Source of the DNA: Thermofilum sp.
GTDB lineage: Archaea > Thermoproteota > Thermoprotei > Thermofilales > Thermofilaceae
NCBI GenBank assembly: GCA_020832965.1
Contig: JAJHRM010000025.1
Span: 1-16,760 of the forward strand
Length of the DNA: 16,760 bases
Direction of reading: 5' to 3'
Made by a program: the position numbers and the translations under genes. The stretch's first letter is position 1, and every line of letters begins with the position of its first letter. Below, piece after piece: positions 2,620 through 16,760 of this stretch. The notes beneath the pieces are model-generated. The model searched no databases. It had not been told where the DNA came from and saw only the letters and a program-made list of their open reading frames with translations.

Positions 2620-3746
2620 AAATCGTCTACGTGCACCACCACTACTGGCCAGTCGTTGGGGGTCTGGAGAACGTGGTCAAGGCGCTGGCGGAAGGCATGG
2701 CAAAACTCGGGCATGAGGTTCACGTAATAACGAGCACACACGGAGCACAGGGCAGACCAAGGAAGGAGAAAGTAAACGGAGTGCACATACACAGAGTCAG
2801 AAGCATACGGCTCGGCTACCCAGACCTAACACGCCCACTGGAATACCCCACCGACGTGTTGAAAAACGCCGATGTAGTGCACGGACACAGCCAAAACAGC
2901 CTATTCACAGCGAAAACAGCTGAGAAGGCCAAGGAACTGGGGGCAACAACGGTAATACATTTCATAGCAGTGAATGCATTAAACGACCACCCAACCCCTT
3001 GGGTCAGGTTCCTAGGACCTTTCTATGCTAGTTACATGGTTAGGAAAGCTATTGAGTTGGCTGATCTCAGGCTTGTTAAGAGCTTTCGGGATCTAGAAAT
3101 TTTGAGGAGTAGGTATGGTGTTGAAGCTCATTACATACCTGATGGTGTTGGCGAGGAGATTGTTAATGCTCCTAACATGGCACAGGAGTTCAGGGAAAAA
3201 TATGGGATTCAAGAACCATTTGTCGTGTATGTTGGTAGATTGCATAAGCTGAAGGGTGTAGATGTATTGATCAAGGCTGTGAGCATAGCTGTGAAGGAGT
3301 ACCCAAAGCTTAAGGCAGTTATTATAGGGCCTGGGGATCAGAAGCCGTACAGAGAACTTGCGCAGAGACTAGGGGTAAAAGATAACGTCGTATTTCTTGG
3401 ATACGTAGATGAAAAGACAAAGATAGGAGCGCTAGACGCGTCAATAGCATTAGTGCTGCCAAGCATATGCAACTATGTCGAGGTCTTCTCGATAGTGATA
3501 TCAGAGGCGTGGGCAAGAAACAAACCAGCAATAGCATCAGCGGTAGGAGAAATACCGTATAGGGTCACACACATGGTCAACGGCCTACTGGTAACGCCGA
3601 GAAATCCTAAGGCGCTTGCCGAAGCAATATCACTACTCGCCAACGACAAAGAGTTAAGTAGAAAGCTCGGTAGCGAAGGTAGGAAAAATGTATCCACTTG
3701 GGACGAAATAGTTAGCAAACTGATTAAAATATACACAACGGGGTAG
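2616..3746 (+). CDS. family 4 (GT-B) glycosyltransferase
   Basis: A 376-residue retaining glycosyltransferase. The N-terminal GT-B domain starts KIVYVHHHYWPVVGGLENVV (GG loop at 15-16). The C-terminal domain begins near FVVYVGRLHKLKGVDVLIKA (202-221) and carries the GT4 E-x7-E nucleotide-sugar motif, Glu289 and Glu297 in VEVFSIVISEAW. The true start is the ATG at 2616, which overlaps the upstream TGA and begins the domain; a longer open frame reaching back to 2478 is only read-through over the upstream gene. Codon usage changes inside the gene: GC- or A-ending codons to about 2990, strongly T-ending codons (GTT, GCT, GGT, GAT) from about 2995 to 3310, then A/C-ending again. This suggests intragenic recombination. 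Confidence 0.92.
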   Translation: MKIVYVHHHYWPVVGGLENVVKALAEGMAKLGHEVHVITSTHGAQGRPRKEKVNGVHIHRVRSIRLGYPDLTRPLEYPTDVLKNADVVHGHSQNSLFTAKTAEKAKELGATTVIHFIAVNALNDHPTPWVRFLGPFYASYMVRKAIELADLRLVKSFRDLEILRSRYGVEAHYIPDGVGEEIVNAPNMAQEFREKYGIQEPFVVYVGRLHKLKGVDVLIKAVSIAVKEYPKLKAVIIGPGDQKPYRELAQRLGVKDNVVFLGYVDEKTKIGALDASIALVLPSICNYVEVFSIVISEAWARNKPAIASAVGEIPYRVTHMVNGLLVTPRNPKALAEAISLLANDKELSRKLGSEGRKNVSTWDEIVSKLIKIYTTG

Positions 3747-3748
3747 GC

Positions 3749-4448
3749 ATGCTCGTACTAGTAACCAGCGGAACAGGATTCACGGAGGCCACTTCGTGGA
3801 TAAATTGGCTAAGAAGGAGTAATTCAGAGCTAAGGTAAATGCAGAATGTTCGCGTCGTCCAGCAGCGTGTACGGCGAACCCGAGGAGATACCCGTCGGAG
3901 AGGACGCGCCCGTGAGGCCCGTCTCGGTGTACGGAGCGAGCAAGGCGGCCTGCGAGAACCTCATCCACGCCTACTCCAAGCTCTACGGGATAAGGGCGGT
4001 CACGCTCAGGTACGCGAACGTGGTGGGGCCGAGGCTCAGGCACGGCGTCGTCTGGGACTTTATAAACAAGCTGAAAAGGAACCCGGGCGAGCTCGAGATC
4101 CTGGGAGACGGCAAGCAGGTCCGAAGCTACGTGCACGTCAGCGACGCGGTCGAAGCCACGATCATCGCGTGGGAGAGGGGCGGGCACGGCTTTGAGGTGT
4201 ACAACGTGGCCAGCGAAGACTGGATCACCGTGGACGAGGTCGCGGACGAAGTAATAAAGGCGATGGGGCTCACCGGCGTGAAAAAAGTGTACAAGCCCGT
4301 GCTCCACGGCGTCGGGTGGCCTGGCGACGTCAAGCACATCGCGCTCAAAATCGAGAAAATAAAGGGGCTGGGCTACAAGCCACACATGAGCTCAAGAGAA
4401 GCGATCAGAGTTTCTGCGTGTAAACTTACCGAAGAGATATCCGACTGA
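3749..4448 (+). pseudogene. collapsed NAD-dependent sugar epimerase/dehydratase (SDR)
   Basis: The 5' part (ATG 3749 to TAA 3836-3838) reads MLVLVTSGTGF..., a damaged version of the Rossmann start V-L-V-T-G-G-x-G-F-I-G. After a frame change, the main open frame from ATG 3846 to TGA 4446-4448 gives about 200 residues: FASSSSVYG, the catalytic YGASK (Tyr29, Lys33 from this ATG), LRYANVVGPR, GDGKQVRSYVHVSDAVEA, and YNVASEDWITVDEVADEV. These are the middle and C-terminal parts of an extended SDR such as UDP-glucose 4-epimerase. About 100 residues of NAD-binding domain between the two parts are absent, so the product cannot bind NAD normally. A related gene with an intact N-terminus begins at 16695. 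Whether the 200-residue part is still translated is unknown. Confidence 0.85.
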
Positions 4449-4516
4449 AATAGTAAAACCAAAGCAAACAATCAGCGGCATTTGCTGAGTTTAAGGAGGC
4501 TCAGAGACAAAGTAGC

Positions 4517-4889
4517 GTGCGGGTCTCTATCGCAGTGCCGAGCTTAGCGACAGTATACCTCAATCACTTGTTGCGCGCGCTCTGAAGCCAGAGCATCAGG
4601 TCGAGCGAAGTCGTGATAGTCGTCAAGGGCGACGCGAAAGCCGTGGAAGAGCTGTGCGGCAAGCTTACTCGCGATCTCAACAAGGGAAAAAGAGGGTGAC
4701 GGGAGACATCGTGATATTCGCGGACGAGGACGCGATACCCCGAGGAAGTGGGTGGAAAAGTACGTCAAGCTACACGCCGCCTACCCCCACGCGGCTGGGA
4801 TCTGCAGCAGGGACATCTATTTGGACCTTAACGGGCTGAAGCTCAAGCCGACGCCCGACGACAGAGTGGGTGTGAGACTCTACAGGTAG
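4517..4889 (+). pseudogene. broken family 2 glycosyltransferase gene
   Basis: Three frames together spell a GT2 enzyme. GTG 4517 starts MRVSIAVPSLATVYLNHL; an in-frame TGA at 4583-4585 follows; the same frame continues as SIRSSEVVIVVKGDAKAVEE. A frame change near 4690 leads to VTGDIVIFADEDAIP, the GT2 D-x-D region. Another change near 4742 leads to RKWVEKYVKLHAAYPHAAG and DLNGLKLKPTPDD, ending at TAG 4887-4889. One nonsense codon, two frame changes, an apparent short internal deletion before VTGD, and loss of the C-terminal half make this a clear pseudogene. Its GC-rich codon usage matches the GT2 genes upstream. Confidence 0.82.
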
Positions 4890-4906
4890 CGCGAATCAAG
4901 AAAAAT

Positions 4907-4957
4907 GCGCTCAAGATCGAGAAGATAAAGAAACTGGGCTGCAAGGTGTTAAAATGA
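4907..4957 (+). pseudogene. short C-terminal epimerase remnant, imperfect repeat of 4341-4379
   Basis: Bases 4907-4945 encode ALKIEKIKKLGCK and match 4341-4379 of the epimerase pseudogene (ALKIEKIKGLGYK) at 33 of 39 positions by eye, all six differences being transitions. The frame ends at TGA 4955-4957, overlapping the ATG of the next gene (ATGA at 4954). It is best explained as the leftover 3' piece of a second epimerase gene, the rest of which has been lost. It lies exactly at the border of the AT-rich island. Confidence 0.6.
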
Positions 4958-6870
4958 GATTAAACAACAATTGTTTAATGTTGGTGATATTATTTTTGTC
5001 TATAAGTATGTCTCTCTCAGTGTTGATGTTTCCTGATGTAGATATATCGAGTATAGATACAACGTTTTACATATTAAACATGTTGCCTCTTATCTACTGG
5101 ATAAGTGTCTGCACATTAGTTTTTACCTTAATATTGAGCCTTGCACGAAAGAACGTGGCACCGTGCATTTTATTGCTTATATTATCTGTCGCATATGTGG
5201 AGCTACCGAGATTAATGTACGAAAACGGCTTTCAGATAGAATACTTTCACCAGGCGCAAATCTTCCATGTGTTGAACTACGGAACAGTAACCGACCCTAA
5301 GTATCCATTCCCCGTATCCGATGTAGCCCACGCAATATTTTCATCTGCGTTCATATATGTAACTGGCTTAGAAGCCAATTACGCTATTAGTCATCTATTA
5401 CCCATACTCCTACGAATAGTACTAACTATTTCTACATTAAGTATAATAACTTGTCTTAGAAACTCGAAATATTACATATACTTCCTAATTATAGCACCTC
5501 TGTACATAATAATTAGCGATACGGAGCCTAGTTTTGCAAATCATTATATTTTTGCCCTTCCCCTTTATGGAATGCTTATTTATTTATTAGTTATATTAGA
5601 TTGCGAAGAAAATGCGAAATTGCATGTTCCCTTATTATTAATTACTTCTGCTATAATATTTTCTCATATATATTTTGCAACATTAGTCATTATTTCATTA
5701 CTCACTCATCTTTTCTTTAATAAGATGATCAAAAATAGAACTCATTTATACGAACGATGGATCTTGTTGCTTGCTATTATTTTCTTTATATGGCATGGTT
5801 ATGCCTGTACATGGTCGATAGAGAAATTTTATGCGGAGATAAACTATGCACTGTTGCCGGCTATTGATAGATTTTTATCTTTTGAAATGAACCCATTTAT
5901 CTACTTTTTTAAAGCTAAAGAGAGATATGGATCTATACCAATTAAGATTTATTATGCAAATATGCTATTACTTAAGAATATCGTAGTGATAACTATTAAC
6001 CTTGTAGTTTTACTTATTTTAATCTATAATGTATTTTATCTTTTGCGTTTGCGAAGATTTAGTGAAATACTTAAGGTTCTCTTAGCGAAACGAACAGTGC
6101 ATCTATGGAGCTTATCAGCTATTCTCTTAGTGATTTATGGTATAACAGGGACAGCTCATCCTCAACGAGTTCTCGAAGCTTTCATTATTTCTAATTTTGG
6201 AACAATTTTAATCTTTCAAGAGTATTTGGAGAGAAAATTAAGTGTTTTCCAATGGAAAAACAAAAGGGCAGAAATTAGATTTAAGGAAAGCCGTTCCTTA
6301 CTACCATCTCTGACCATCTTAGTTGCAACTCTAATATGCATTTTATTTATACCACTTAAGATAGCGACACATTGGAGCACAAGTCTCACTTACATAGGCT
6401 TTTCACAAAAATACCTTCACCAAGCATCATTTATGGCGAAATTTGGAAACCATAGAATGTATATACACTATGTCGGTCCCACACCATACTGGTTCTTGAC
6501 AGAGATAACAAGTAGGTGGCCAAGATCATTTGTGTATGATCTGAATGGTCCTGAAGAAGAGACCTACTTTACGGAGACTCTTACAAATATAGAACGTAGC
6601 TTAAATACAACAGAAGAACACTACATTTACTATTCCCTATCTTCTCTATTTGCAATGAGAGCAAAGTACTTCATAGAACCATTGCTTGATAACTTCATTA
6701 AAAGTTATGAAAAAAGATTAGATAGGGCTTCTCTTGTTTACACGAATTCATTAACAGAGAACATAATTTATGTACCAGCAGGTGTTATAACTTTACACGC
6801 GTATACACGCAATTCTGCGGCTATCATTCTTCGAATGCTTCAATTTTCCAGCTTTGGAAGCTGCTGGTAG
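4954..6870 (+). CDS. large polytopic membrane protein, GT-C/Wzy-like, with a replaced 3' end
   Basis: The reading frame gives 638 residues with roughly 12 hydrophobic segments, at about 7-25, 38-63, 69-86, 144-167, 172-188, 197-215, 225-250, 268-284, 337-365, 384-398, 404-422 and 449-468. A polar region of about 140 residues follows. The first large loop (EYFHQAQIFHVLNYG, YPFPVSDVAHAIF) resembles the acidic first loop of GT-C glycosyltransferases and archaeal polysaccharide polymerases. There is no WWDYG motif, so it is not an AglB/STT3 oligosaccharyltransferase. It could polymerise or transfer lipid-linked glycan outside the membrane. The last roughly 28 codons (from about 6784) read out of frame through a GT4 fragment, so the native C-terminus has been lost. 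Base composition is far more AT-rich than the genes before 4450, suggesting transfer. Confidence 0.75.
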   Translation: MRLNNNCLMLVILFLSISMSLSVLMFPDVDISSIDTTFYILNMLPLIYWISVCTLVFTLILSLARKNVAPCILLLILSVAYVELPRLMYENGFQIEYFHQAQIFHVLNYGTVTDPKYPFPVSDVAHAIFSSAFIYVTGLEANYAISHLLPILLRIVLTISTLSIITCLRNSKYYIYFLIIAPLYIIISDTEPSFANHYIFALPLYGMLIYLLVILDCEENAKLHVPLLLITSAIIFSHIYFATLVIISLLTHLFFNKMIKNRTHLYERWILLLAIIFFIWHGYACTWSIEKFYAEINYALLPAIDRFLSFEMNPFIYFFKAKERYGSIPIKIYYANMLLLKNIVVITINLVVLLILIYNVFYLLRLRRFSEILKVLLAKRTVHLWSLSAILLVIYGITGTAHPQRVLEAFIISNFGTILIFQEYLERKLSVFQWKNKRAEIRFKESRSLLPSLTILVATLICILFIPLKIATHWSTSLTYIGFSQKYLHQASFMAKFGNHRMYIHYVGPTPYWFLTEITSRWPRSFVYDLNGPEEETYFTETLTNIERSLNTTEEHYIYYSLSSLFAMRAKYFIEPLLDNFIKSYEKRLDRASLVYTNSLTENIIYVPAGVITLHAYTRNSAAIILRMLQFSSFGSCW

Positions 6871-7154
6871 AGGATGCATACCAATTATAACAACGAAAAA
6901 TGAGCACTGCTGAGATCTTCGAGAATGGGAAAGAAGCCTTCATAATTAAACCAGGCGATTCAGATAGCATAGCCGATTACCTTACATGCTTATCCAATAA
7001 TGACAATTTAAGAAAAGAAATTTCTCGACGAATCTATGAGAAAAGTTTCAGTTACATATACAATAAAGTTCTGGGAGAATACCTAAATCTTGTATTTAAG
7101 TGCTCTGAAAGAAAAATGAAAGACTTGAGTATTACTGACTGTAAAAGGTTGTGA
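6789..7154 (+). pseudogene. C-terminal fragment of a GT4 glycosyltransferase, frameshifted
   Basis: In the frame one base ahead of the membrane-protein frame, 6791-6911 reads ...ILRLSFFECFNFPALEAA followed by GCIPIITTKNE. This contains the GT4 E-x7-E motif (ECFNFPALE). It stops at a TGA near 6909, but a different frame (ATG 6900) continues the protein as TAEIFENGKEAFIIKPGD and on to TGA 7152-7154, which is the expected remainder of a GT4 C-terminal domain. So this is the last third or so of a GT4 gene with one frameshift near 6900. The N-terminal domain is missing, and the fragment is fused onto the 3' end of the membrane-protein gene. Its stop still overlaps the start of the next gene, preserving an old operon join. 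Confidence 0.82.
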
Positions 7155-8317
7155 TGCTAGTGTTTCCCCTCTTAATAATATCCTATTGTTTTGCTTGGAG
7201 CCCAAAAGATATCAGGGAGGGTCTCACTCATAGATATTATGGCCTCTACTCTAACATGGCTAGGCATGTTTTGAAACATGGTAAACCTGTACATTGGTAT
7301 AGCGTTACCGAACGAAGATTGCTGAGAATATTTCATGGTAAATGTTCCTCATCTAAATGCTCATTGTTTGTAGCAGTGGCGAAAACTTTAGGAGAAGCGC
7401 TTACATTTGGCAAACCAGTAATTGTGATGTTGGATTACCCTCATAGCTTCCTTGGAATTAAGCATTTTATAACATATGTATCTTCACTTTTATTACTTCA
7501 TGCCTTTCGCTTGGTCGGCGCTGTTTTTGTTACTGTTGATAATATGGATCCCCCGATCGAACATTCCATTGAACTTAAAGGAAGGATAAGTTTTTCAGAA
7601 AAGTTGCTTTGGTTGTTGCTTAATAAGCTAGTTTTTCACTTCGATCTTATGGTATTTCATTCCCAGAGCTACAGAGTTTATCACAAATTGTACTACAAAC
7701 TTAGCTATGAGAAAACTACTGTTTATCCACCTGGAAGCTTCCCTGAGATAATTCCCTATGTAGAGCCGCCGTTAAAACAACCTGTCAAGGTTTTCCTGTC
7801 GGGTAGAATACATGAATGGATAGGTCTCAAGCAGCTCATTACACTTATGGATCGCCTTAAAGGTGAAGACATTGGGGTGAAATTTATAGTACTTGATAAG
7901 TCGATGCCTACAAACTTACGAAGAGAGGATATTGAGATAGTAAATATTTACATCAATTATTTTGACTTTACAAGGTTGCTAGCAGATGCCAATGTGTTGT
8001 TGTTGATACGACCTAGATCTCTGCATCATGTACTTACGGTTAGGGCTACCTTGGCTGATTATATGATGACGGGCAGACCTGTATTGTATCTTTATTCTCT
8101 CGGATCTAAGGAGATTGTGAGTAATGTGGAGGGATGTTATTCGTTTAGATCGATAGAGGAAATTCCAAATATTCTGCGGAAGCTAACTAGAGATTCCTCA
8201 TCGCTAAACAAGCTTTGTATAAACATTAGGACGTATGCTGAGAATCGTTTGGACTATAAAAAGCTAGCGTTAGATCTTCTGAGAGAAATAATAAATCGTA
8301 TTCGTAGTACGAATTAG
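7154..8317 (+). CDS. GT-B fold glycosyltransferase (GT4-like)
   Basis: The product is 387 residues from ATG 7154 (388 if the overlapping GTG at 7151 is used). The start overlaps the upstream TGA. The N-terminal half has LTHRYYGLYSNMARHVL followed by a Rossmann-like core with KPVIVMLDYPHSF. The second half begins at PVKVFLSGRIHEWIGLKQLI, the usual opening of the GT-B donor domain, followed by LLADANVLLLIRP and DYMMTGRPVLYLYS, which occupies the place of the E-x7-E helix. The canonical second glutamate is not obvious, so family assignment within GT-B is tentative. Codons are AT-rich like the rest of the island. Confidence 0.72.
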   Translation: MLVFPLLIISYCFAWSPKDIREGLTHRYYGLYSNMARHVLKHGKPVHWYSVTERRLLRIFHGKCSSSKCSLFVAVAKTLGEALTFGKPVIVMLDYPHSFLGIKHFITYVSSLLLLHAFRLVGAVFVTVDNMDPPIEHSIELKGRISFSEKLLWLLLNKLVFHFDLMVFHSQSYRVYHKLYYKLSYEKTTVYPPGSFPEIIPYVEPPLKQPVKVFLSGRIHEWIGLKQLITLMDRLKGEDIGVKFIVLDKSMPTNLRREDIEIVNIYINYFDFTRLLADANVLLLIRPRSLHHVLTVRATLADYMMTGRPVLYLYSLGSKEIVSNVEGCYSFRSIEEIPNILRKLTRDSSSLNKLCINIRTYAENRLDYKKLALDLLREIINRIRSTN

Positions 8318-8701
8318 GTGTTTAGTCGCATAAAAAAGATTGTGTTCATTACTGGTGCGTGTGAGTCTTGTTAAAAGATTATGGTATGATAAGCTCATCG
8401 AGACTCTCTCGTCGAAAAATGTTGAGGTAAGTGCCCATACGTATTATGTGTTTAGGGATCCATTTACAGTTATATCAGTTTACAATAGGAAGAATGTTTG
8501 GAACTGCCTCTCCGAAAGATTGCTGTCAGGTTCATAGTATGGATACGAGTATAATGGATTACTCTTGAAAACTGAGCTTTAAAAGTCTCAGATTACAGAT
8601 CTATACGTTATAAACTATTTAAGGGCTATGGAATACTTATGAAAAATATTAATAAGCTGATCGATGATGAATTACCTAACAAATTTCTCACAAAAGATTA
8701 A
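8318..8701 (+). pseudogene. degraded coding remains, family not identified
   Basis: No convincing intact gene lies between the two glycosyltransferases here. A short frame from GTG 8318 reads RIKKIVFITGACESC and stops at 8372-8374; a second frame (8340-8537) continues RLWYDKLIETLSSKNVEVS and YYVFRDPFTVISVYNRKN; a third open stretch, 8576-8701, gives LKVSDYRSIRYKLFKGYGI and INKLIDDELPNKF. Together they could be pieces of one decayed enzyme, the opening being similar to the first strand of many glycosyltransferases. The assignment is weak; 8340-8537 could instead be a small independent gene from a TTG start. Confidence 0.35.
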
Positions 8702-8733
8702 GATGTTACGAAAATATTGTGCTCGCGTTACTT

Positions 8734-9756
8734 ATGGACACGGACATAATTATCGTCACTAAATACCCTGTTGATGTTAGGAATTATATTTCAGGACAGG
8801 AGTTCTTCCTTTATATGTTAATGAAAGTTCTTACAAGGCATGGTATACATATAAAGATTATAGACATTAATAAGCTAATAAAAAGCTATGAATATTGCTC
8901 TTACAACTTTATACATTTATACTACTTGGGATTCAAAGATATAGTTAAACTTAGAAAACTGTGCAGAAAATCTAATATGATCTACCATGTGTATCATGTT
9001 GAAGATGTTTCGTGGACAAGAATGCATGAATTCTCATGGAAAGCTTTCCTATTAAGTATACAACCCCTAATTTATGCCTATCTTGCCACGTCAAAAAGTG
9101 TGTATACGTGGCTAAGGCTCAGAGCTTTTCTAGCAAGAAGCATTCTCATTGAACCCTACTATGAATGTCCCTGTAAAACTTTTCATTCCCATAACTACAT
9201 AGATATAATACGCGAGAAGCTTCATGACAATGAAATAAAAATACTTTACGTGGGAAGGTTGAATCCTTTTAGGTCTCCCCCGCGCATACTTCTAGAAATA
9301 GCCAAGGGCGTTAGCAAAAAAGCTAAGAAACCCGTAAGACTCATTATAGTAACGAAATTAGAAAATCTCTCTAACATTAATACGCTCAAATATAATAACT
9401 TGACGATTAACATCATAAACAGAAGGATCAACGATGAAGAGAAGTGCGAACTTTATAGGAGATCACAATTTTTCATTTACTTTGCACCATGGGGAAATGT
9501 TGCTATGAACCCTCCAATAACAATTCTGGAAGCTGTTTATCACGGTACGATCCCTATAGTTTCAGAAACTATTTCAGAAGATCTTAAGATACCAGATGCA
9601 TTTATAGCAAATAGTGTAAAAGAAGCTATTAATAAAATAACATTGCTATTATATAATACCAGCAAAGTACTTCATAATATCATATTTCTCAAAAAAATAT
9701 TCGAAAATTTTTATGATGAAGATAGATTCATTGATGCTTTTAAACGCCTTGTCTAA
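8734..9756 (+). CDS. GT4-like glycosyltransferase
   Basis: The product is 340 residues from ATG 8734; an in-frame GTG at 8719 would add five residues, but ATG gives the natural start DTDIIIVTKYPVDVRNYIS. The second domain begins at IKILYVGRLNPFRSPPRIL, a standard GT4 donor-domain opening, and contains NPPITILEAVYHGTIPIVSE, which matches the second half of the E-x7-E helix with Asn or Met where the first Glu usually stands. A role in glycan assembly is inferred. It is AT-rich like its neighbours and ends 47 bases before the next gene, which has its own promoter. Confidence 0.8.
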   Translation: MDTDIIIVTKYPVDVRNYISGQEFFLYMLMKVLTRHGIHIKIIDINKLIKSYEYCSYNFIHLYYLGFKDIVKLRKLCRKSNMIYHVYHVEDVSWTRMHEFSWKAFLLSIQPLIYAYLATSKSVYTWLRLRAFLARSILIEPYYECPCKTFHSHNYIDIIREKLHDNEIKILYVGRLNPFRSPPRILLEIAKGVSKKAKKPVRLIIVTKLENLSNINTLKYNNLTINIINRRINDEEKCELYRRSQFFIYFAPWGNVAMNPPITILEAVYHGTIPIVSETISEDLKIPDAFIANSVKEAINKITLLLYNTSKVLHNIIFLKKIFENFYDEDRFIDAFKRLV

Positions 9757-9769
9757 GCTATGAAAACAA

Positions 9770-9778
9770 CTTTTAAAG
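9770..9778 (+). promoter_or_regulatory. TATA box for the nucleotidyltransferase gene
   Basis: CTTTTAAAG lies about 29 bases upstream of the ATG at 9804, preceded by purine-rich GAAAACAAC as a possible BRE. This spacing gives a leaderless or nearly leaderless transcript, common in Thermoproteota. No Shine-Dalgarno sequence stands before the ATG, which agrees with this. Confidence 0.55.
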
Positions 9779-9803
9779 TGCTTAGCCGTAACTAATATAT
9801 AAA

Positions 9804-10910
9804 ATGGGTTCAAACAATAAGCAATATTTGCTGGCTTTCTTAAGAGCTATAGGCTCGCCGCTAGCGTCAAATCAGCCTCAAGTTGGTGGAGAGGTAAAAA
9901 GCAGTTACGTTCCTAAGCTTTACACTATAGCTGAGGTGAATAAGATACCATTAACATATCTTAACATAATCAGTCCAAAAGAAAGGCAAAGCCTCTCTGA
10001 GTACAAGTATCATTGCACACGTTTGCGTAGGTTGATGGAGATAATAAGTGAAATATCAGAGCTATTCGATAAAGAGGACATAGATTATGTCATATTTAAA
10101 ACAATAAGACCTTACCCTGAATATGTTGCAGATATAGATGTGCTTAACTTAGGCTTGCATAGAAACTATGAGAAGATGGTGGAGATTTTAAGGAGAGCAG
10201 GATACATATTCATAGATAGAGGGGCTTACTGCACAACCTTCCAAGATTATAAAACCAAGTTTAAGACGGATTTAATGATAGACGTTTACGATGAGATCAG
10301 CGTCGCCTACTTGATATACCTCGACAAACGAAAGCTAAGTTGCTACGTATCCGAGAAAGAACTCCCCACAGGGCAGAATGTTAGGGTTTTCAGCCCTGAA
10401 GCCGAGCTCTTAGTCACCATAGCCCACTCAGCTATAAAAGAGAACCGGTATATCCTAGCAGAATACTTTGCGACGCTACATTATTTAGCCCTAATGGATC
10501 ATCCTTCAATCGAAGAGCTCATCGACCTAGTGAGAGAAAACAAACTGGTGAATGCATTCCGCTGGCATTTAACAATAACATCAATGCTCCACAAATTTGC
10601 CTTTAATTCTATTCCAGAGAAGCTCTCTAACCTATTGTTTAAGCTTGGCGGTCCTTGGGGCAAAGTGTACAGACAAGTTTCTGAGTTGACGTATCCACCA
10701 TATAGGTGTGATACTTTAACCTTAATGGCCATCTTCAGAGAGAAGATGCAAGATAATATTTTTAGAAGGAGTCTGTATCACCAAATATTTAATTTTCCAA
10801 CAAAAACCTTCTGTAAGAAACTTCTAACAAAGCTTGCTGGCATGCTGACCCTACGAAGCACAGGGCAGCAGCGGCATTATAAGGGCTTCGTCTCTCTGGA
10901 GCATGAGTGA
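9804..10910 (+). CDS. nucleotidyltransferase-like protein (uncharacterised NTase family, PF14907-like)
   Basis: A 368-residue protein with a polymerase-beta-type nucleotidyltransferase core. IDYVIFKTIRPYPEYVADIDVLN (start about residue 93) holds the paired metal-binding aspartates Asp110 and Asp112. A third acidic strand, TDLMIDVYDE, supplies Asp160. A mostly helical C-terminal region follows, starting FSPEAELLVTIAHSAIKENRY. This layout matches uncharacterised NTases found near polysaccharide genes. The substrate is unknown; it could transfer a nucleotide to a sugar, protein or small molecule. The first 70 or so residues are extra to the core. A C-terminal paralogue, without catalytic residues, lies at 15216-15734. 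Codons are AT-rich at the start and more balanced after about 10250. Confidence 0.7.
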   Translation: MGSNNKQYLLAFLRAIGSPLASNQPQVGGEVKSSYVPKLYTIAEVNKIPLTYLNIISPKERQSLSEYKYHCTRLRRLMEIISEISELFDKEDIDYVIFKTIRPYPEYVADIDVLNLGLHRNYEKMVEILRRAGYIFIDRGAYCTTFQDYKTKFKTDLMIDVYDEISVAYLIYLDKRKLSCYVSEKELPTGQNVRVFSPEAELLVTIAHSAIKENRYILAEYFATLHYLALMDHPSIEELIDLVRENKLVNAFRWHLTITSMLHKFAFNSIPEKLSNLLFKLGGPWGKVYRQVSELTYPPYRCDTLTLMAIFREKMQDNIFRRSLYHQIFNFPTKTFCKKLLTKLAGMLTLRSTGQQRHYKGFVSLEHE

Positions 10911-11405
10911 AATGATGCTAGCAATGAACTTTACGCGAAAATTTTTAGCTGAGTTGTAGTGCACGCTGGGCAAATGCATTGTAGCAACCCTATCCAAGGT
11001 ATCCCATCCTTATTAAAGAAGGGCAAAGGTATCATCGTGAATTGACGAAATTTAGAGGCGCGCGCGGGCTTTTCATACTAACTACACCAAACATGGCCAG
11101 CTGGATAAATAGTTTTTGCTCTTTTTTGGTTATTTACCTTACGCTTATGAATGTCCTGGCAAATATGGAGAAGATTTGGAGAAAAGACCTTTCCAAAAAT
11201 ACCCTACTTGTTTTGGACATACAAAGCTTTATACTTTCAAAACGTTAAACAAACTATTGAATCAATATGGTTTTAATATTATTCGAGCAGTTATGCTATG
11301 GGATATGTTCAGAAGAATGCAATGATATTATATTTAGAGAGAATTTTTAGTAAGTTAAGGAAAAACTTAGGATCTGGAATTCTCTTAGTTGCTACAAAAG
11401 AATAG
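10911..11405 (+). pseudogene. remnant of an SAM-dependent methyltransferase (C-terminal half)
   Basis: The stretch 10911-11041 holds no gene I can support. From 11042 one frame reads GLFILTTPNMASWINSF, the post-catalytic strand and helix of many class I methyltransferases. After a frame change near 11115 a second frame reads GYLPYAYECPGKYGEDLEK, then HTKLYTFKTLNKLLNQYGF; after stops and further frame changes, ERIFSKLRKNLGSGIL and LVATKE end at TAG 11403-11405. The order fits one methyltransferase C-terminal region, and the SAM-binding half is missing. A GC-alternating tract, 11058-11066, sits at the point where the homology begins. Confidence 0.65.
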
Positions 11406-11435
11406 ATTTTTGCTTATTAAAATACAACTTATACT

Positions 11436-12158
11436 ATGGCTAAAATTTATTTAGTATTTAGTTTTGATGATTCTAGAAAATATATGCTAAAATGTGCAAA
11501 AATTATTGAAAAATATGGTTTAACAGGAACTTTTTATTTAGATTGTAGAGGTTTAAAAGACCTATCTGTTTTGAATGTGAGGTGGCTAGGGGATTTAGGT
11601 GAAGTTGGTTCTCATACTCTCACGCATCCTGACTTGACGGCTTTAGATGTGAAGAAAGCTTTTTACGAGTTATTAAAGTCAAAAATTATTTTGGAGGAAA
11701 TTTTAGAGAAGAGGGTGGAATCCCTAGCTTATCCTTATGGTCGTTATAACGATACTGTGGTAGAGCTTACCCGAAGGGCTGGTTATCTATGTGCTCGAAC
11801 AACGGAGCCTTTTAGTCTCAGTCCTTTCCAAGACCCCTTTAGATTAAAGGTTTCGTTTTATACAGATCCTCATGCTTTTAGGGATTTCTTTAAAGTTCTG
11901 AGAAATCCTAATCTCTTATTCCTATTTTTTAAGCCCTGGTTAATTAAGGTGTGGGATAAATTAATTAGGTCGGCGATTGAGGAGCTAATGAGAAGGGAAG
12001 GGGTATTTATGGTGCACATAATGGTGCACCCAACTTTTATAGCCGAGCGCGACGATTGGAATCGTTTTGAAAGTTTAATTGAAGACTTATCTTCATATAA
12101 TCTAATTAATTTAACTGTTTCTGATTTCGTTAAGAGAATGATCGGCGGTAACCTATGA
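11436..12158 (+). CDS. polysaccharide deacetylase (NodB/CE4 family)
   Basis: A 240-residue CE4-type enzyme that would remove N- or O-acetyl groups from a glycan using a divalent metal. NodB motif 1 is FSFDDS (catalytic and metal Asp at 11-12). Motif 2 is SHTLTHPD with metal ligands His60 and His64. Motif 3 is AYPYGRYND (98-106). The late motif MVHIMVHP supplies His194/His198. No signal peptide is visible, so it probably works on cytoplasmic lipid-linked or nucleotide sugars rather than outside the cell. The stop overlaps the ATG of the next gene (ATGA at 12155-12158), indicating translational coupling with a GT4. The upstream region is AT-rich, but no well-placed TATA box was found. Confidence 0.88.
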   Translation: MAKIYLVFSFDDSRKYMLKCAKIIEKYGLTGTFYLDCRGLKDLSVLNVRWLGDLGEVGSHTLTHPDLTALDVKKAFYELLKSKIILEEILEKRVESLAYPYGRYNDTVVELTRRAGYLCARTTEPFSLSPFQDPFRLKVSFYTDPHAFRDFFKVLRNPNLLFLFFKPWLIKVWDKLIRSAIEELMRREGVFMVHIMVHPTFIAERDDWNRFESLIEDLSSYNLINLTVSDFVKRMIGGNL

Positions 12159-13342
12159 GAGTGGCTATTTTCTCGAGCGCGCTCTGGCCCTTAGGGAGTG
12201 GCGGAGAGCTTGCCACATACCTTTACGCTGAGCTGATGCGCGGCTTAGGCGTTGACCCTATTTTTATCCTCAATGAACTTGATGAGGCTAGCTTGCAGCG
12301 GCATGAGTTCAAGCTCTTAAAGCCTAGGCGTGTGGGAAAAGGGAAGTATGCTATTGCGTTAGATATTAAGGCTTTGATCGAAGTTTTGCGTAACATTGAT
12401 GTGGCATACTTTGTTGCGAGCAACCTTGAGCTGATTCCTTTCGTTAAGAAGTTTGTCGGTAAGCCTGTCGTTGTTCATGTTCACTCGTATTACCCGCTCT
12501 GCCCTGTTGGGCACATGTACAATTTTTACAGGGGTGAGGTATGCGATGGTGGATGGGGGGATTGTGCTAAATGCATTTGGGTGTATGAGGCTCAGAGGAG
12601 GAGTTTCCCAGAAGCTTTCCTATCGGCCGCGCTGAATGCGACTATTGGAGGGTGTTTCTTGGGAACTTTAAGTATGGCGGATGCAATTGTTTTTGTCTCT
12701 GAAGCTCAGAGAAAGCTTTTCTTGAAAAATGCTTCGAAGAGAGGTTTTAATATTGATCATAAAAAAACATATATAGTTTACAATCCTCTTCCGAATTTGG
12801 AATTCGTAGAAATAGAAGGAGATGATTTGGGATTTTTAGGAGGTTTCGATCCAATAAAAGGTTTCGAAGTACTTTTTAAAGCATGGCATAAAGTGTATCC
12901 TAAGTATCAGCAAAATAAACTTTATGTTACTAAAGGTAAGCACATAAGGAGTTTTGAGAGGGTGGGCATCGTGGTTTACCGTCGCCTAATGCCTCCCACG
13001 GAGATCCTGACGGTTATTAGGAAGGTTAGAGCGCTGGTCGTTCCCTCGCTTTCGCCTGAGCCCGCGCCGTACGCGTGCGTGGAGGCATGTCTTTACGGGA
13101 GGTTGCTCATAGCCTCGGATATCGGTGGGATCCCCGAGATTGTCGGAGGTTTACCGGGTGTTAAGTTGACGCCGCCAGGAGATGAGAGTGAGTTGGCTGA
13201 CGCGTTGGAGTGGGCTCTCTCTATGAGCCGCGAAGAGGTCGTTGAGTTGGGTTTGAAGAATCGCGAAGGGGTGCTTAGTAGATTTAATAACTTTAAGTCT
13301 GCGAAAGAACTGTTGAAGATTTTCGAGAGAGTTTCAAGGTAA
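12155..13342 (+). CDS. family 4 glycosyltransferase with a four-cysteine cluster
   Basis: A 395-residue GT-B enzyme. The start RVAIFSSALWPLGSGGELAT shows the GT4 glycine-rich loop. VVVHVHSYYPLCPVGHMYNF opens a Cys cluster with Cys116, Cys130, Cys137 and Cys140, a pattern seen in a subgroup of GT4 enzymes and probably a structural metal site. The donor domain begins around residue 223, and the E-x7-E motif is Glu302/Glu310 in PEPAPYACVEA. The gene is coupled to the deacetylase by an ATGA overlap, so the deacetylated sugar may be related to its substrate. Bases about 12720-12960 (residues 188-268) are visibly AT-rich while both flanks use GC-ending codons, suggesting that the inter-domain block was exchanged. 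Confidence 0.9.
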   Translation: MRVAIFSSALWPLGSGGELATYLYAELMRGLGVDPIFILNELDEASLQRHEFKLLKPRRVGKGKYAIALDIKALIEVLRNIDVAYFVASNLELIPFVKKFVGKPVVVHVHSYYPLCPVGHMYNFYRGEVCDGGWGDCAKCIWVYEAQRRSFPEAFLSAALNATIGGCFLGTLSMADAIVFVSEAQRKLFLKNASKRGFNIDHKKTYIVYNPLPNLEFVEIEGDDLGFLGGFDPIKGFEVLFKAWHKVYPKYQQNKLYVTKGKHIRSFERVGIVVYRRLMPPTEILTVIRKVRALVVPSLSPEPAPYACVEACLYGRLLIASDIGGIPEIVGGLPGVKLTPPGDESELADALEWALSMSREEVVELGLKNREGVLSRFNNFKSAKELLKIFERVSR

Positions 13343-13407
13343 TTATGGAAGAAGAGTAGTGAGAGAAAGGGGGTTATCAGAGTCTAAGTAGTGTAAAGGG
13401 TGTGCTA

Positions 13408-14055
13408 ATGCGCGGCGTGATCGCGATTTGCGGCGTTGACGGTTCTGGCAAGTCTACGCAGGTAAAGTTGCTTGAAAAGTATTTGAGCCAGAAGGGCTTT
13501 AAGGTTAGGCGTGTGTGGTTCCGTTGGGTTGCTTTCCTCTCGTACCCGTTTCTTGCGTTGTGCCGTTTTCTGGGTTATACGCGGTGGAGGACTGTTGCTA
13601 GGAGCAACGTGAAGTACGCTGAGCGCAGGTTTTATCTGAACAAGGCGTTGGCTAAGGTTTGGCCGTGGCTGTTCGCGATAGATACTTTTATTAACTTTAT
13701 ATTTAGAATAAAGTTTAGAAAGATTCTCGGCTATGTTATCCTCTGTGATAGGTTCATCCCAGATGTGCTTGTGGATTTGATGTGTGAAACGAGGGATTTT
13801 CGTCTTCCGAGGCGCGTGGTAGGTAGGATATTGCTCTCGCTGGTTCCTGGAGATTCTAAGTTAGTGATAGTGGACGTTCGCGAGAAGACAGCTTACACTA
13901 GGAAGAACGATATTCCGAGCTTAGGTTATCTTAGAGAAAGAAGAAAGCTTTACTTATACTTAGCCAGAGTATTGAATATTCCCATAGTTAATGGTGAAAT
14001 GAAAATTCATGAAGTTAATACTGCTATTCTAAGGCTTTTGAAAATTATACCTTAA
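13408..14055 (+). CDS. thymidylate-kinase-like P-loop kinase
   Basis: A 215-residue protein from ATG 13408; an in-frame GTG at 13402 is possible but would lie almost on the purine-rich AAAGGG at 13395-13400. The Walker A motif GVDGSGKST occupies residues 9-17, and VILCDRFIPDVLVDLM matches the DR-Y/F-containing region of thymidylate kinases. The LID and thymidine-binding signatures of true Tmk are not evident, and a long basic hydrophobic insert (about 40-100) is present. It may phosphorylate a nucleotide or another small molecule in the glycan pathway. Such proteins often occur beside NTases in surface-polysaccharide clusters, so a role outside DNA precursor synthesis is my inference. Confidence 0.75.
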   Translation: MRGVIAICGVDGSGKSTQVKLLEKYLSQKGFKVRRVWFRWVAFLSYPFLALCRFLGYTRWRTVARSNVKYAERRFYLNKALAKVWPWLFAIDTFINFIFRIKFRKILGYVILCDRFIPDVLVDLMCETRDFRLPRRVVGRILLSLVPGDSKLVIVDVREKTAYTRKNDIPSLGYLRERRKLYLYLARVLNIPIVNGEMKIHEVNTAILRLLKIIP

Positions 14056-14084
14056 AGAAAAGAAGGTAGACTGCTTACGCGCCG

Positions 14085-14543
14085 GTGACGCTGCTGGTTG
14101 ACGAGGTGTCGCGGTACAAGCTTCAAGTAGTGCGTGTGTACCTGAGCGCTAGGGAGACTCTCCTCAGCGTCAAAGGGGTTTTGAGGAGGCTGAACGACCG
14201 CAAGGTGCTCGGTAGCTTCTACTTGGAGTTCGGCAGGAGGCTTGAGGTGCTCAAGCTCGTCAAGAGGTGTTATAGGCGCGGCCCGCTCTTGAGTCTCTGC
14301 GTCCGCCGCGTGATCCCGTGCGCGCTGAGGAGGATGGGCTACGAGGTCGTTGCCTTCGACGTCGAGCCGTGGCCCTACGTAGGGATCGCCGAGTGCTACA
14401 GCGTGGAGGCAGTCAGGCGTGACCTCGAGAGACTGTTCACAGCATCGCTGGTGCCAGATTGCATAGTGTTCTCGGAAGTGTGGAATGTCAATGTAAAATG
14501 TATCAATCAGGTGTGCTTGAGGGCTCAGTTTGAGCGTTGTTAA
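14085..14543 (+). pseudogene. N-terminal part of an SAM methyltransferase with damaged motif I
   Basis: GTG 14085 opens 152 codons. The region GPLLSLCVRRVIPCALRRMG followed by YEVVAFDVEPWPYVG has the order of a class I methyltransferase: motif I, helix, acidic end of strand 2. However, the glycines expected in motif I (LSLGxGxGxxP) are Cys, Arg and Arg. VRRDLER and DCIVFSEV match the motif II/III part, after which the sequence ends in an unrelated tail (from about 14480) rather than the catalytic half. Loss of the SAM-binding glycines and the C-terminal half make an active enzyme unlikely. The tail overlaps the next methyltransferase frame by a few bases. Confidence 0.65.
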
Positions 14544-15187
14544 GCTCTTTTATCGTAGGGTTGTCGGTTTGTTGAGCAAGCTTCGTGTTTATGAGGAAAG
14601 GACAGATGCTTACGTGAGGCTTTTCGAACGCCATACTAGCAGTGCTGGAGTTCTGTTGGATGTTGGGTGCGGTACAGGAGCTTTCAGTAGGGCTGTGGCT
14701 AGTGGGGGTCGTTTAGTTGTTGCCTTGGATATCGATGAGAGCGTTTTGAGGAAAATTGACGGTTCTGAAAGTATTGAAAGGGTTTGCGCGGATGCTCAGG
14801 GTCTTCCTTTCCGTGATGGTTCTGTGGATTGCGCGCTCGCTATCTCTCTTCTTGAGCATCTTGAGAGGCCGGAGAGGTGTATTGAGGGGCTTTTCAGGGT
14901 TTTGAAGCGTGGGGGTGTTGTTGTGGTTCAGCTTCCTAATCTTCAGTATGTTTTTGAGCCTCACTCGAAGTGGCCGCTGCTGTGTCTTATGCCGAGGAGG
15001 TTTCAAAGGAAGATTTTTGAATTACTCATACGTTAATATGGAGGTTACAGTTAAGAGGATATTATCACTGTTTCAGTGTTCTGGTTTTTGGATTAGAGAA
15101 ATTGTAAAGGTTTACCACCTAGGTTTGATGAAACTTTTACCTGTACCTCCTGCCTACATTTTCGTTGCTGTAAAAATTTCCGGTTAA
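14530..15187 (+). pseudogene. class I SAM methyltransferase (Methyltransf_11-like) with one frameshift
   Basis: The first frame, TTG 14530 to TAA 15034-15036, gives 168 residues with motif I LLDVGCGTGAFS (about 42-53), an acidic strand-2 end in VVALDIDES, ADAQGLPFRDGSVDCALA, LEHLERPERC, and RVLKRGGVVVVQLPN. All are hallmarks of small-molecule methyltransferases. The rest of the fold continues in the next frame: YVNMEVTVKRILSLFQCSGF and on to VAVKISG, TAA 15185-15187. One base too many in the stretch 15013-15036 (a run of five T lies at 15013-15017) would explain this. It may be a true pseudogene or a sequencing error in an intact gene of about 218 residues. The substrate would be a sugar or lipid carrier. 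Confidence 0.75.
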
Positions 15188-15215
15188 CTCGTGTGTTGTA
15201 GCGCGCGCGCTCGTC

Positions 15216-15734
15216 GTGGTCGAGCCGTACACGGTCACGCTAGAGAGGAGGGGTTTCATCGTGGACCTGTACACGGAGCCGGCGTTCGCGTGGGTCGTGT
15301 ACATGGACGGCGGGAGGCTGCTCCGCGAGTGCTCGGAGGACGTGGAGCTGGCGGGCGTGCCGGCTCGCGGCTTGTCGAGGGGGGCGGAGGTGGCGGTCGC
15401 GGCGGCGCACGCGGTCTACAAGGAGCACTTGGTCCTCCTGATGGACTGCCTGGTGGCTTGGAGCTGGCTGGGCGGCGAGGCCTGGAGCGTGGCGGCGGAG
15501 TGCGGCGTGGAGGCGGCGCTGGTGGAGCTGCTGAGGGCCTGCCGCCTCGTGGCGGGCGGGCTCGCCGAAGCACCCCTCAGGCTGGGGCCGGGCGCGCTGC
15601 TCAGGGTTTACGCGGGCAAGGCTGCGCGCGACCCGGTTTTCCGCGCGACGCTGCCGAACGCGTTGGAGTACCTGCTGTCTCGCGGGGATGCAGGCGCGAG
15701 GGTGCTGGCTAGGATTGCGAGGAAGAGCTACTAG
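15216..15734 (+). pseudogene. C-terminal half of a second nucleotidyltransferase-like gene
   Basis: GTG 15216 opens 172 codons to TAG 15732-15734. FIVDLYTEPAFAWVVYMDG aligns with LMIDVYDEISVAYLIYLDK of the 9804 gene, and LSRGAEVAVAAAHAVYKEH with FSPEAELLVTIAHSAIKEN. The homology therefore starts in the middle of the NTase core, after the DxD strand; the catalytic N-terminal half (about 150 residues) is missing. It could be a stand-alone helical domain, but loss by deletion is more likely because the upstream sequence is the end of a methyltransferase, joined through a GCGCGCGCGC tract (15201-15210). The gene is extremely GC-rich, opposite to its AT-rich paralogue, so the two have different origins. 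Confidence 0.7.
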
Positions 15735-16022
15735 TTGGCGGCTTCGGCGCCCGCCTTGTGCGCCTCCAGAGCAATTCCGTTTTCGCTCTCGCAGGGGCGC
15801 GCTGAAAGCGCTTTAGCTTTTCAGGAAAGAGCTCAATCCGCGCTTAAACCTCGCGGGGTGGTGCGGGAGCCGGCTGGCCAGCGCTAGGGTCGGCTTTTCT
15901 CCCTTCTGTCCCGCCTCTCTCGGGCTCGTTCCCCGGAAAGGTCCCCGTTGAGCCGGCTAAGCGGGGCTCGCTGAACCAGCTCAACGCGCTCTGCCTCTGG
16001 GGATCGGCGCGCTGGGGGAGGC
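15735..16022. other. GC-rich non-coding spacer
   Basis: No ORF on either strand shows convincing homology. A 10-base palindrome AAAGCGCTTT sits at 15805-15814 within a possible hairpin (TGAAAGC...GCTTTTCA, 15803-15823), and GAGCCGGCT occurs twice (15868-15876 and around 15949-15958). I found no tRNA T-loop, C/D box pair or other RNA signature. It separates the glycan debris from the PaREP1 gene. Confidence 0.45.
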
Positions 16023-16031
16023 TTTTTATAC
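16022..16031 (+). promoter_or_regulatory. TATA box of the PaREP1 gene
   Basis: CTTTTTATAC stands out in a GC-rich spacer, its centre about 25 bases before the GTG at 16052. This is the spacing for leaderless transcription in Thermoproteota. The preceding GGGGGAGG is purine-rich and could serve as BRE. It indicates that PaREP1 is transcribed independently of the glycan genes. Confidence 0.65.
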
Positions 16032-16051
16032 GGCACCGCGCTGCCAGGTGT

Positions 16052-16426
16052 GTGGCTGCCGCTGGGAGGCTCGAGTTGGCTAGGCGTTTGCTCGCCGAGG
16101 CTGAAGAGTGCCTGGCTAAGGGGGATGCCGTCCAATCTTCCGAGAAGCTCTACAAGGCTGCTGAGGAGTGCATCAAAGCCCTTGCAGAGCGCCTAAACTT
16201 AAAAGAGGTTAGGGAAGCCGAGGAGAAAGGCAGGTGGACGGTAACGCTTCTCGAAAAAGCTGTTGGGAAACTCGTGGACAAGTTAGGTGTGGACGTTGAG
16301 TTCGGATGGGCGGAGGCAAACTACCTGCACGTATGGGGGTTCCACGAAACAAAGCTCGACGTGGAAGACGTTAAGAGGAGAATACCCATAATAAGGAGAC
16401 TCGTAGATCTAGCACAGAAAACTTGA
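16052..16426 (+). CDS. PaREP1-family (HEPN-like) protein
   Basis: A 124-residue all-helical protein. GDAVQSSEKLYKAAEECIKA (about residues 23-42), followed by LAERLN and the C-terminal WAEANYLHVWGFHETKLDVE, matches the archaeal PaREP1/PaREP8 family first seen as repeated genes in Pyrobaculum. The family has a HEPN-like helical fold; its function is not established, and a partner nucleotidyltransferase or toxin role is only a possibility. GTG 16052 is chosen because it fits the TATA box spacing and begins the helical domain. Length is usual for single-domain members. Its codon mix is intermediate, unlike the NTase fragment before it. No antitoxin-like gene overlaps it. Confidence 0.85.
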   Translation: MAAAGRLELARRLLAEAEECLAKGDAVQSSEKLYKAAEECIKALAERLNLKEVREAEEKGRWTVTLLEKAVGKLVDKLGVDVEFGWAEANYLHVWGFHETKLDVEDVKRRIPIIRRLVDLAQKT

Positions 16427-16694
16427 TCTCTTTCGTAATTTTCTCAAAACTTAACCTTTCGCGCGCTAAAAATGAAGACTCAATTTATGAATTTCTTCAA
16501 AACAAGGTGGCCTTAACTACAGAAAAAGGGAGAAACTGCAACCCTAGAATGGAATGCGTTCCCCGGATGGATGTGGCTTCCAAAAAGATCCCACTTCAAC
16601 TGCTAAGAACCCTCAACGGCGCGCGCTGGCTTGAAGGTGGATTTCTGTGATGGGATAGGCTGTTGAGGCAAGTTGAGGGGAGGAGGCGAATCTT
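16427..16694. other. spacer between PaREP1 and the epimerase gene
   Basis: T-rich sequence just after the PaREP1 stop (16428-16445, CTTTCGTAATTTTCT) may serve as a transcription terminator. The rest holds no gene I can support; a 75-codon frame at 16423-16650 has no recognisable features. Two GC-alternating tracts occur at 16460-16466 and 16619-16626. The final part contains a strong Shine-Dalgarno sequence. Confidence 0.4.
16677..16686 (+). promoter_or_regulatory. Shine-Dalgarno sequence of the terminal epimerase gene
   Basis: GGGGAGGAGG lies 8 bases before the GTG at 16695. It is the clearest Shine-Dalgarno sequence in the window and decides the start codon, showing that this gene is translated from a leadered mRNA, unlike PaREP1. 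Confidence 0.6.
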
Positions 16695-16760
16695 GTGAAG
16701 AGGGTCTTGGTCACGGGCGGCGCCGGCTTCATAGGGAGCCACGTCGTGGACAGGCTGGTC
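16695..16760 (+). CDS. NAD-dependent sugar epimerase/dehydratase, N-terminal start only (3' end outside window)
   Basis: GTG 16695 opens KRVLVTGGAGFIGSHVVDRL and the frame runs off the window after 22 codons. VTGGAGFIGSH is the exact Rossmann NAD-binding motif of extended SDR enzymes such as UDP-glucose 4-epimerase, dTDP-glucose 4,6-dehydratase and UDP-glucuronate enzymes. Which reaction it catalyses cannot be told from 22 residues. It is the intact counterpart of the broken motif LVTSGTGF in the pseudogene at 3749 and probably supplies nucleotide sugar to this locus. Confidence 0.88.
   Translation, partial: MKRVLVTGGAGFIGSHVVDRLV

Follow-up and report, generated by a model that had tools for sequence, protein, structure and literature searches.

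A probable bracketed glycan-biosynthesis island in a Thermofilum contig, with a fuller counterpart for several of its gene remnants

The 16760-bp stretch of DNA analysed here, called the window throughout, is positions 1 to 16,760 of contig JAJHRM010000025.1 from an assembly of Thermofilum sp. (GCA_020832965.1), apparently the entire contig and probably metagenomic, and it carries a locus in which intact glycan genes stand among gene remnants. Coordinates are those of the whole stretch on its forward strand, and every feature described lies on the (+) strand; genomes, contigs and loci used for comparison carry G, C and L numbers. By Pfam family, glycosyltransferases and sugar-modifying enzymes dominate the gene content, which points to a surface glycan as the putative product. 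On the left are three intact glycosyltransferase genes: GT2a (583–1677; PF00535, 2.4e-32), a family-2 enzyme that forms the left bracket of the locus, followed by GT2b (1744–2619) and GT4a (2616–3746), both assigned by Pfam. Further right come a large membrane protein gene without a family match (4954–6870), GT4b (7151–8317), GT4c (8719–9756), an intact NTP_transf_5-like gene, NTP5 (9804–10910; PF14907 at 30.8 bits, just below cut-off), an intact polysaccharide deacetylase gene (11436–12158; PF01522, 1.9e-15), GT4d (12155–13342) and a P-loop kinase gene weakly resembling thymidylate kinase (13402–14055; PF02223 at 24.0 bits, below cut-off). GT4b, GT4c, GT4d and the kinase gene are likewise intact. 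The right bracket is a second NTP_transf_5-like gene, hereafter NTP, of which the window keeps the C-terminal half (15191–15734). By arithmetic from the list of open reading frames (ORFs), intact genes make up about 64% of 3749–15734; ten long ORFs are uninterrupted, and frame breaks occur only in remnants. Among 24 loci from named genomes the nearest GT2a, at 76% identity, is that of the metagenome-assembled genome (MAG) Desulfurococcales archaeon EvPrim.Bin23 (G001), and metagenome proteins reach 85%. Judging by these GT2a relatives, the host is probably hyperthermophilic.

Base composition changes in steps along the locus. The left flank has about 67% GC and the region 5000–12000 about 30–45%, and the membrane protein gene, at 0.33 against the flank's 0.67 or so, marks the locus as different in composition from its flanks. 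GC drops from 0.58 to 0.33 near 4950, across an epimerase tail, and climbs to 0.71 at 15191. At third codon positions (GC3) it is 0.89 in GT2a, 0.83 in a truncated epimerase, 0.32 in the membrane protein gene, 0.81 in a methyltransferase remnant (14085–14480) and 0.91 in the NTP half. The low-GC interior is taken as 4954–14055.

The residues kept in each remnant, and the frames used, were read from blastx of the window against 21 reference proteins from relatives. Directly after GT4a, where a whole epimerase stands in G043:C28, lies a scrap of an epimerase N-terminus (3749–3838; residues 2–11 and 14–21 in two frames, over 3749–3820). About 95 residues are then absent before an epimerase without its NAD-binding part (3846–4448; residues 117–315 of 318 over 3846–4442; 78% identical to G001:C30 and 72% to G043:C28). 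Next come the N-terminal half of a broken GT2 in three frames (4505–4886; matched to the whole GT2 of G001:C30) and the tail of a second epimerase copy (4893–4955, the match lying within about 4893–4952), which forms a 50-nt pair, 80% identical, with the tail of the first. The membrane protein ORF carries its own sequence to about 6800 and then runs on into a GT4 tail (6773–7154; residues 274–379 of 387 over 6773–7091, one frame break at 6897; matched to L179:3360–4520). Between GT4b and GT4c is a polysaccharide deacetylase scrap in two frames (8343–8680; residues 62–99 and 170–201 of 268). Three methyltransferase remnants follow: a C-terminal part in two frames (11066–11292; residues 128–201 of 206), an N-terminal part (14085–14543; residues 1–117 of 271 over 14136–14480) and a frame-broken gene (14530–15187; Pfam and blastx, frame change near 15016–15036). 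The NTP half completes the series (residues 114–287 over 15210–15731; 82% identical to G001:C30 and 61% to G083).

Chance level was set for seven pieces by 300 dinucleotide shuffles of each. No shuffle reached the score of the GT2 half, the GT4 tail, the methyltransferase C-part, the epimerase tail or the deacetylase scrap (0/300 each). The epimerase N-terminal scrap and the C-part of the frame-broken methyltransferase were each equalled by one shuffle (1/300), and these two therefore rest on their position. For the deacetylase scrap, blastx in a search space of reduced size gave two pieces (E values 0.04 and 0.01), and of the 21 reference proteins the deacetylase was the top scorer. Negative controls fell at chance level (230/300 for an FkbM methyltransferase at 6700–7154, 96/300 for the gap at 15735–16051). 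A preliminary description of the locus had listed eight remnants, counted there as ‘at least seven’, and all eight were confirmed against homologues. Two further remnants are recognised here, the deacetylase scrap and, left of GT2a and outside the span first described, a C-terminal fragment of a YdjM-family relative (233–589). The latter has no Pfam match itself; over 293–598 it is 44% identical by blastx to residues 73–171 of the 177 encoded at L012:9413–9943 (PF04307, 2.8e-9), which occupies the equivalent position in L012. The ‘many’ operon-type overlaps of remnants with intact neighbours described earlier were not borne out by the ORF list, since it contains one such overlap (7151–7154) and one between two remnants (14530–14543).

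A fuller counterpart of the low-GC interior was found in another archaeon, in contig C93 of genome G043, whose order is epimerase C-part, membrane protein, FkbM methyltransferase, GT4, GT4b, deacetylase, methyltransferase, GT4c, NTP-like, GT4d and kinase. The window interior of 4954–14055 is largely collinear with it, in the same order and orientation, and five genes are 60–69% identical (membrane protein 61%, GT4b 60%, GT4c 62%, GT4d 69%, kinase 63%); NTP5 and its counterpart share 28%. Set against C93, the window has the epimerase only as a tail, lacks FkbM together with residues 1–273 of GT4 as one block, and has the deacetylase between GT4b and GT4c reduced to a scrap. With that block gone the membrane protein ORF reads into the GT4 remnant; no trace of FkbM was detected at 6700–7154 by blastx and the shuffle test, and the proteins P0121 and P0122, 89–90% identical to the window membrane protein, stop about where its own part stops and have no GT4-derived extension. 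The methyltransferase is whole in C93, between deacetylase and GT4c. Its window counterpart is the C-part that follows NTP5, and between GT4c and GT4d the window holds NTP5, this C-part and the second, intact deacetylase gene. Since a relative retains these genes with their order unchanged, several broken genes look like leftovers of deletion; for the epimerase tail, the GT4 tail and the deacetylase scrap, the best reading is that they are scars of internal deletion within one cassette. Elsewhere, the membrane protein homologue P0130 has an N-terminal piece that by eye resembles the N-terminal region of a GT4, and looks like a scar-like fusion in another contig. To the right of the kinase gene and a YdjM-family gene in C93 (L179, 12514–14452) are two ORFs that have no Pfam match over cut-off and are not recognisable as glycan genes.

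The left part of the window also has fuller relatives. G043:C28 carries GT2b (67% identical to that of the window, which is 72% identical to L010), GT4a (59%), a whole epimerase (72%), a GT4 called GT4e and a methyltransferase, and G001:C30 has a run of epimerase, GT4e, methyltransferase and GT2. The window has GT2b, GT4a, the broken epimerase and the broken GT2; GT4e and the methyltransferase are missing. That GC steps coincide with remnants could suggest a chimeric contig, assembled from a high-GC and a low-GC organism and carrying frame errors. We consider such an artefact very unlikely: ten long ORFs are open and breaks are confined to the remnants, the collinearity with C93 spans several scars, the GC3 0.81 piece at 14085–14480 sits inside the low-GC block, and the same kinds of truncated genes occur in other assemblies.

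The two bracket genes recur together in other genomes. We searched 27 genomes, all picked for their GT2a relatives, with the NTP of G001 as query; it was matched in 18, and 10 of these 18 have it on the strand of GT2a, 10–21 kb further downstream. The two genes are 13.5 kb apart in the window, 10.1 kb in G083, 10.3 kb in G003 (where GT2a is divided over two contigs), 10.9 kb in G001:C30, 12–14 kb in G221, 12.9 kb in G141, 15.1 kb in G091, 18.0 kb in G016, 18.9 kb in G015, 20.3 kb in G089 and 20.8 kb in G048; the GT2a of G141 and G091 is only distantly related (42–47%). A further genome, G002 (L010), has NTP directly downstream of GT2a. G083 has a complete right bracket gene (293 aa), and in G001:C30 its first ~45 residues are in another frame, which is a real break or an error (contig coverage about 4.8x). 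The resemblance of this gene to NTP_transf_5 is weak, the relatives in C30 and G083 scoring below the Pfam cut-off.

Between the brackets, tblastn with the window proteins served to compare interiors. Here the expectation of conserved flanks around a differing interior was borne out: bracket genes recur, interiors vary, and several remnants have intact homologues at matching places in relatives. The preliminary description had named identical remnants at identical places, with no variation among close relatives, as evidence against turnover; instead, the interior of G001:C30 differs from that of the window, the two having in common a 5′-truncated epimerase and, in C30 frame-broken, an incomplete NTP. 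Several oddities were seen near these genes. In L170 (G048:C1:417001–430000; 9250–10500), an epimerase-like gene right of NTP is interrupted by a few hundred bp with similar short flanking sequence, a possible small insertion noticed by eye. Epimerase relatives near NTP are divided over frames in L169 (G015; 4238–5123) and L172 (G014; 3303–3945), and in L147 (G027; 6861–7286) a broken C-terminal copy of GT2a, about 1.3 kb away from the complete one, directly follows an epimerase gene with an open frame.

Contigs of one and the same genome also differ in what follows a shared gene. In G001, contigs C29 and C30 are 97–100% identical over 180 bp inside GT2a and 75–97% identical to the GT2a end, then 52–80% identical over the next GT4, after which there is no similarity; this fits two alleles at a single locus within one population. 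In G043, C28 and C93 have a 408-bp epimerase stretch in common (95% identity) before their content diverges, with GT4e and the methyltransferase behind the common epimerase in C28 and the membrane-protein cassette in C93. Replaced content between the G001 contigs, together with at least three composition classes and methyltransferase remnants that are out of place relative to both C93 and G001, would suit the earlier view of repeated arrivals, in which every remnant is the debris of a distinct piece of incoming DNA that took the place of some of the locus. We regard this as unlikely, as the GT4 tail, deacetylase scrap and epimerase tail sit at places collinear with C93, the first epimerase has its place in C28, and FkbM and the N-terminal part of GT4 were lost as one block. 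The original proposal is supported in part, by the change of content next to near-identical sequence in the sister MAG G001 and by the lack of an insertion sequence (IS) among the ORFs scanned; it needs correcting in that these three scars are better attributed to internal deletion than to separate arrivals.

Taken together, we favour, with a probability of roughly 70%, an island bracketed by GT2a and the NTP_transf_5-like gene whose interior has been swapped between lineages, with a low-GC cassette behind an older high-GC module and with scars left by deletions. The bracket, the difference in content, the collinearity and the truncation points are observed. Import by recombination through shared genes, and the order of events, are what we infer from them. 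Under the proposed scheme, the high-GC module on the left would have comprised GT2b, GT4a, epimerase, the genes since lost and GT2. The cassette behind it would run from the membrane protein gene to the kinase gene, a type that in G043:C93 also follows an epimerase, and later deletions inside the cassette and at its joins may have left the GT2 half, epimerase tail, GT4 tail and deacetylase scrap.

The alternative of plain vertical decay, in which the whole locus would descend from a common ancestor with G043 and erode without import, draws on the similar closeness of left module and cassette to G043 (59–72%), near the identity between the core proteins of G001 and G043 (RpoB 61%, S3 59%). It must contend with the GC steps from 0.58 to 0.33 near 4950 and up to 0.71 at 15191, and with the distribution of GT4b: G001, nearest to the window by its bracket genes, has no GT4b match, and in the order GT4b has matches at E<=1e-3 in 2/214 genomes, of which only G043 (1/214) is strong. 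We judge vertical decay distinctly unlikely. GT4c is also rare in close form, with matches at E<=1e-3 in 12 of 398 phylum genomes, a sample that did not include G043; the best (1.2e-16) was 28% identical and none was close.

Several observations weigh against the exchanged island. The identity of the cassette to G043 (60–69%) barely exceeds the G001–G043 core identity (~60%), so it is GC and rarity that speak for transfer over descent, and any transfer was not a recent one from G043 itself. The C93 epimerase is cut by the contig start, and a whole epimerase is thus not demonstrated there. Collinearity with C93 leaves the methyltransferase remnant, NTP5, the deacetylase at 11436–12158 and the remnants at 14085–15734 unaccounted for. 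NTP was not found in 9 of the 27 genomes searched, and in 7 others it is placed differently. G014 and G027 have it upstream of GT2a, and G021 and G032 directly upstream; in G007 the two genes converge, and in G004 and G006 they sit on different contigs. C29 and C30 could be paralogous loci, and C28 and C93 two copies in one genome. Coding density, estimated by rough tiling with open remnants counted as coding, is 0.892 for 12 relatives in the 10 kb that follow GT2a and 0.878 in 18 control regions drawn from 10 of those 12 genomes (p = 0.82), and the window value over 3749–15734, 0.82, is within the control range of 0.82–0.96.

As coding density showed no difference from controls, the idea that the locus is generally gappy in relatives was dropped. 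Of 16 relative loci, 14 yielded one hit or more in a scan for partly homologous short ORFs, C29 and L140 being the exceptions; this offers only a hint of remnants there too, since several hits were judged alternative-frame matches (G43 4764, L010 4143, G027 6971 and 7082) or short paralogues, and the scan, which had no matched control, caught only 3 of the window's own remnants.

The oddest feature is the recurrence, in the window, G001 and G091, of 5′-truncated epimerases with constrained C-terminal halves. Compared with G001, the epimerase part has identities of 0.84/0.85/0.59 at the three codon positions, the NTP part 0.87/0.91/0.67 and GT2a 0.82/0.88/0.57, with the ratio of non-synonymous to synonymous divergence (dN/dS) at about 0.17, 0.15 and 0.14, respectively, and dS near saturation. 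Both parts thus diverged like working genes, and hence were cut late or still work as pieces; those remnants whose breaks involve several frames may be older. The open, constrained C-parts of G001:C30 and G091 have other gene surroundings. In G091:C17 (L171, 5036–6592) a truncated relative of the membrane protein precedes the 5′-truncated epimerase, an arrangement like that of G001:C30 with a different breakpoint. A fixed epimerase breakpoint was considered and dropped: the truncations begin near residues 101 (C30), 117 (window) and 148 (G091), and so there is no single hotspot. The window holds two epimerase pieces, one preceding each module, and it is conceivable, if doubtful, that the epimerase serves as a portable homology anchor for exchange of modules made of an epimerase and its downstream genes, with truncated copies as footprints or as C-terminal halves still in use.

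Among other features at the right end, a PaREP1 family gene (16052–16426; PF05942, 1.7e-36) lies between the NTP remnant and the start of another epimerase, which is cut by the contig end (16695–16760; 95% identical over 20 residues to the epimerase of G043:C28). In G089 a whole epimerase stands directly right of NTP.

Pfam scans of 23 window ORFs, out of 55 with at least 60 aa, detected neither a transposase nor a recombinase; no tRNA was found in the window, and no oligosaccharyltransferase among the scanned ORFs. The window has no direct repeat longer than 23 nt at a seed of 11, a setting that missed the 50-nt epimerase-tail pair and was not a dedicated tandem-repeat search, and its inverted repeat pairs are weak. 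The earlier observation of no transposase or terminal repeats thus agrees with the absence of an IS from these 23 ORFs and from the repeat search. The suggestion of phase- or antigenic-type diversification fared worse. Programmed variation within one genome could call on several partial gene copies, but with no recombinase among the scanned ORFs and no suitable repeats (the one longer direct pair being 50 nt at 80%) we hold it to be exceedingly improbable. Three scans, with NTP5, the membrane protein and GT2a, returned no relatives on viral contigs; one of them used a single protein query and would reach close relatives only.

The window provides an archaeal glycan locus with bracket genes that can be named, alternative interiors and a fuller counterpart for its remnants, and consequently the ways in which such islands change (deletion, exchange through shared genes or repeated arrivals), as well as any viral drive, can be put to the test in natural populations. 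A second lesson is that gene remnants by themselves are no proof of turnover, as some mark deletions in a cassette that survives more complete elsewhere. In bacterial O-antigen clusters, too, conserved genes flank a swapped interior; the organisms and the bracket genes are others.

Variable archaeal surface or glycosyltransferase islands are described in three reports (PMC4535781, PMC5554439, PMC5867893), and among the open-licence literature matches listed we found none whose title or abstract opening concerned this bracketed locus. A euryarchaeal surface-structure island is similarly a mosaic between co-occurring lineages, with recombination reported, and differs in having S-layer protein genes and mobile elements; in the window the brackets are GT2a and NTP, no mobile element was found, and the scars have counterparts in a fuller relative. 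The N-glycosylation clusters of Haloferax likewise vary in content between related strains while an end gene, aglJ, is relatively conserved; that cluster is aglB-linked, whereas no oligosaccharyltransferase is among the window ORFs scanned (PMC5867893). Sulfolobus acidocaldarius has a 33-kb glycosyltransferase island with strain-specific deletions (PMC5554439). It resembles the window in belonging to a thermophilic archaeon, in carrying GT1, GT2, methyltransferase and membrane protein genes and in varying by deletion; its deletions were seen within one species by read mapping, whereas the window points to exchange between lineages and has scars inside genes. The locus is of a kind already known, a variable glycosyltransferase island, probably of the replacement type, and what it adds is the bracket, the fuller counterpart and the map of scars.

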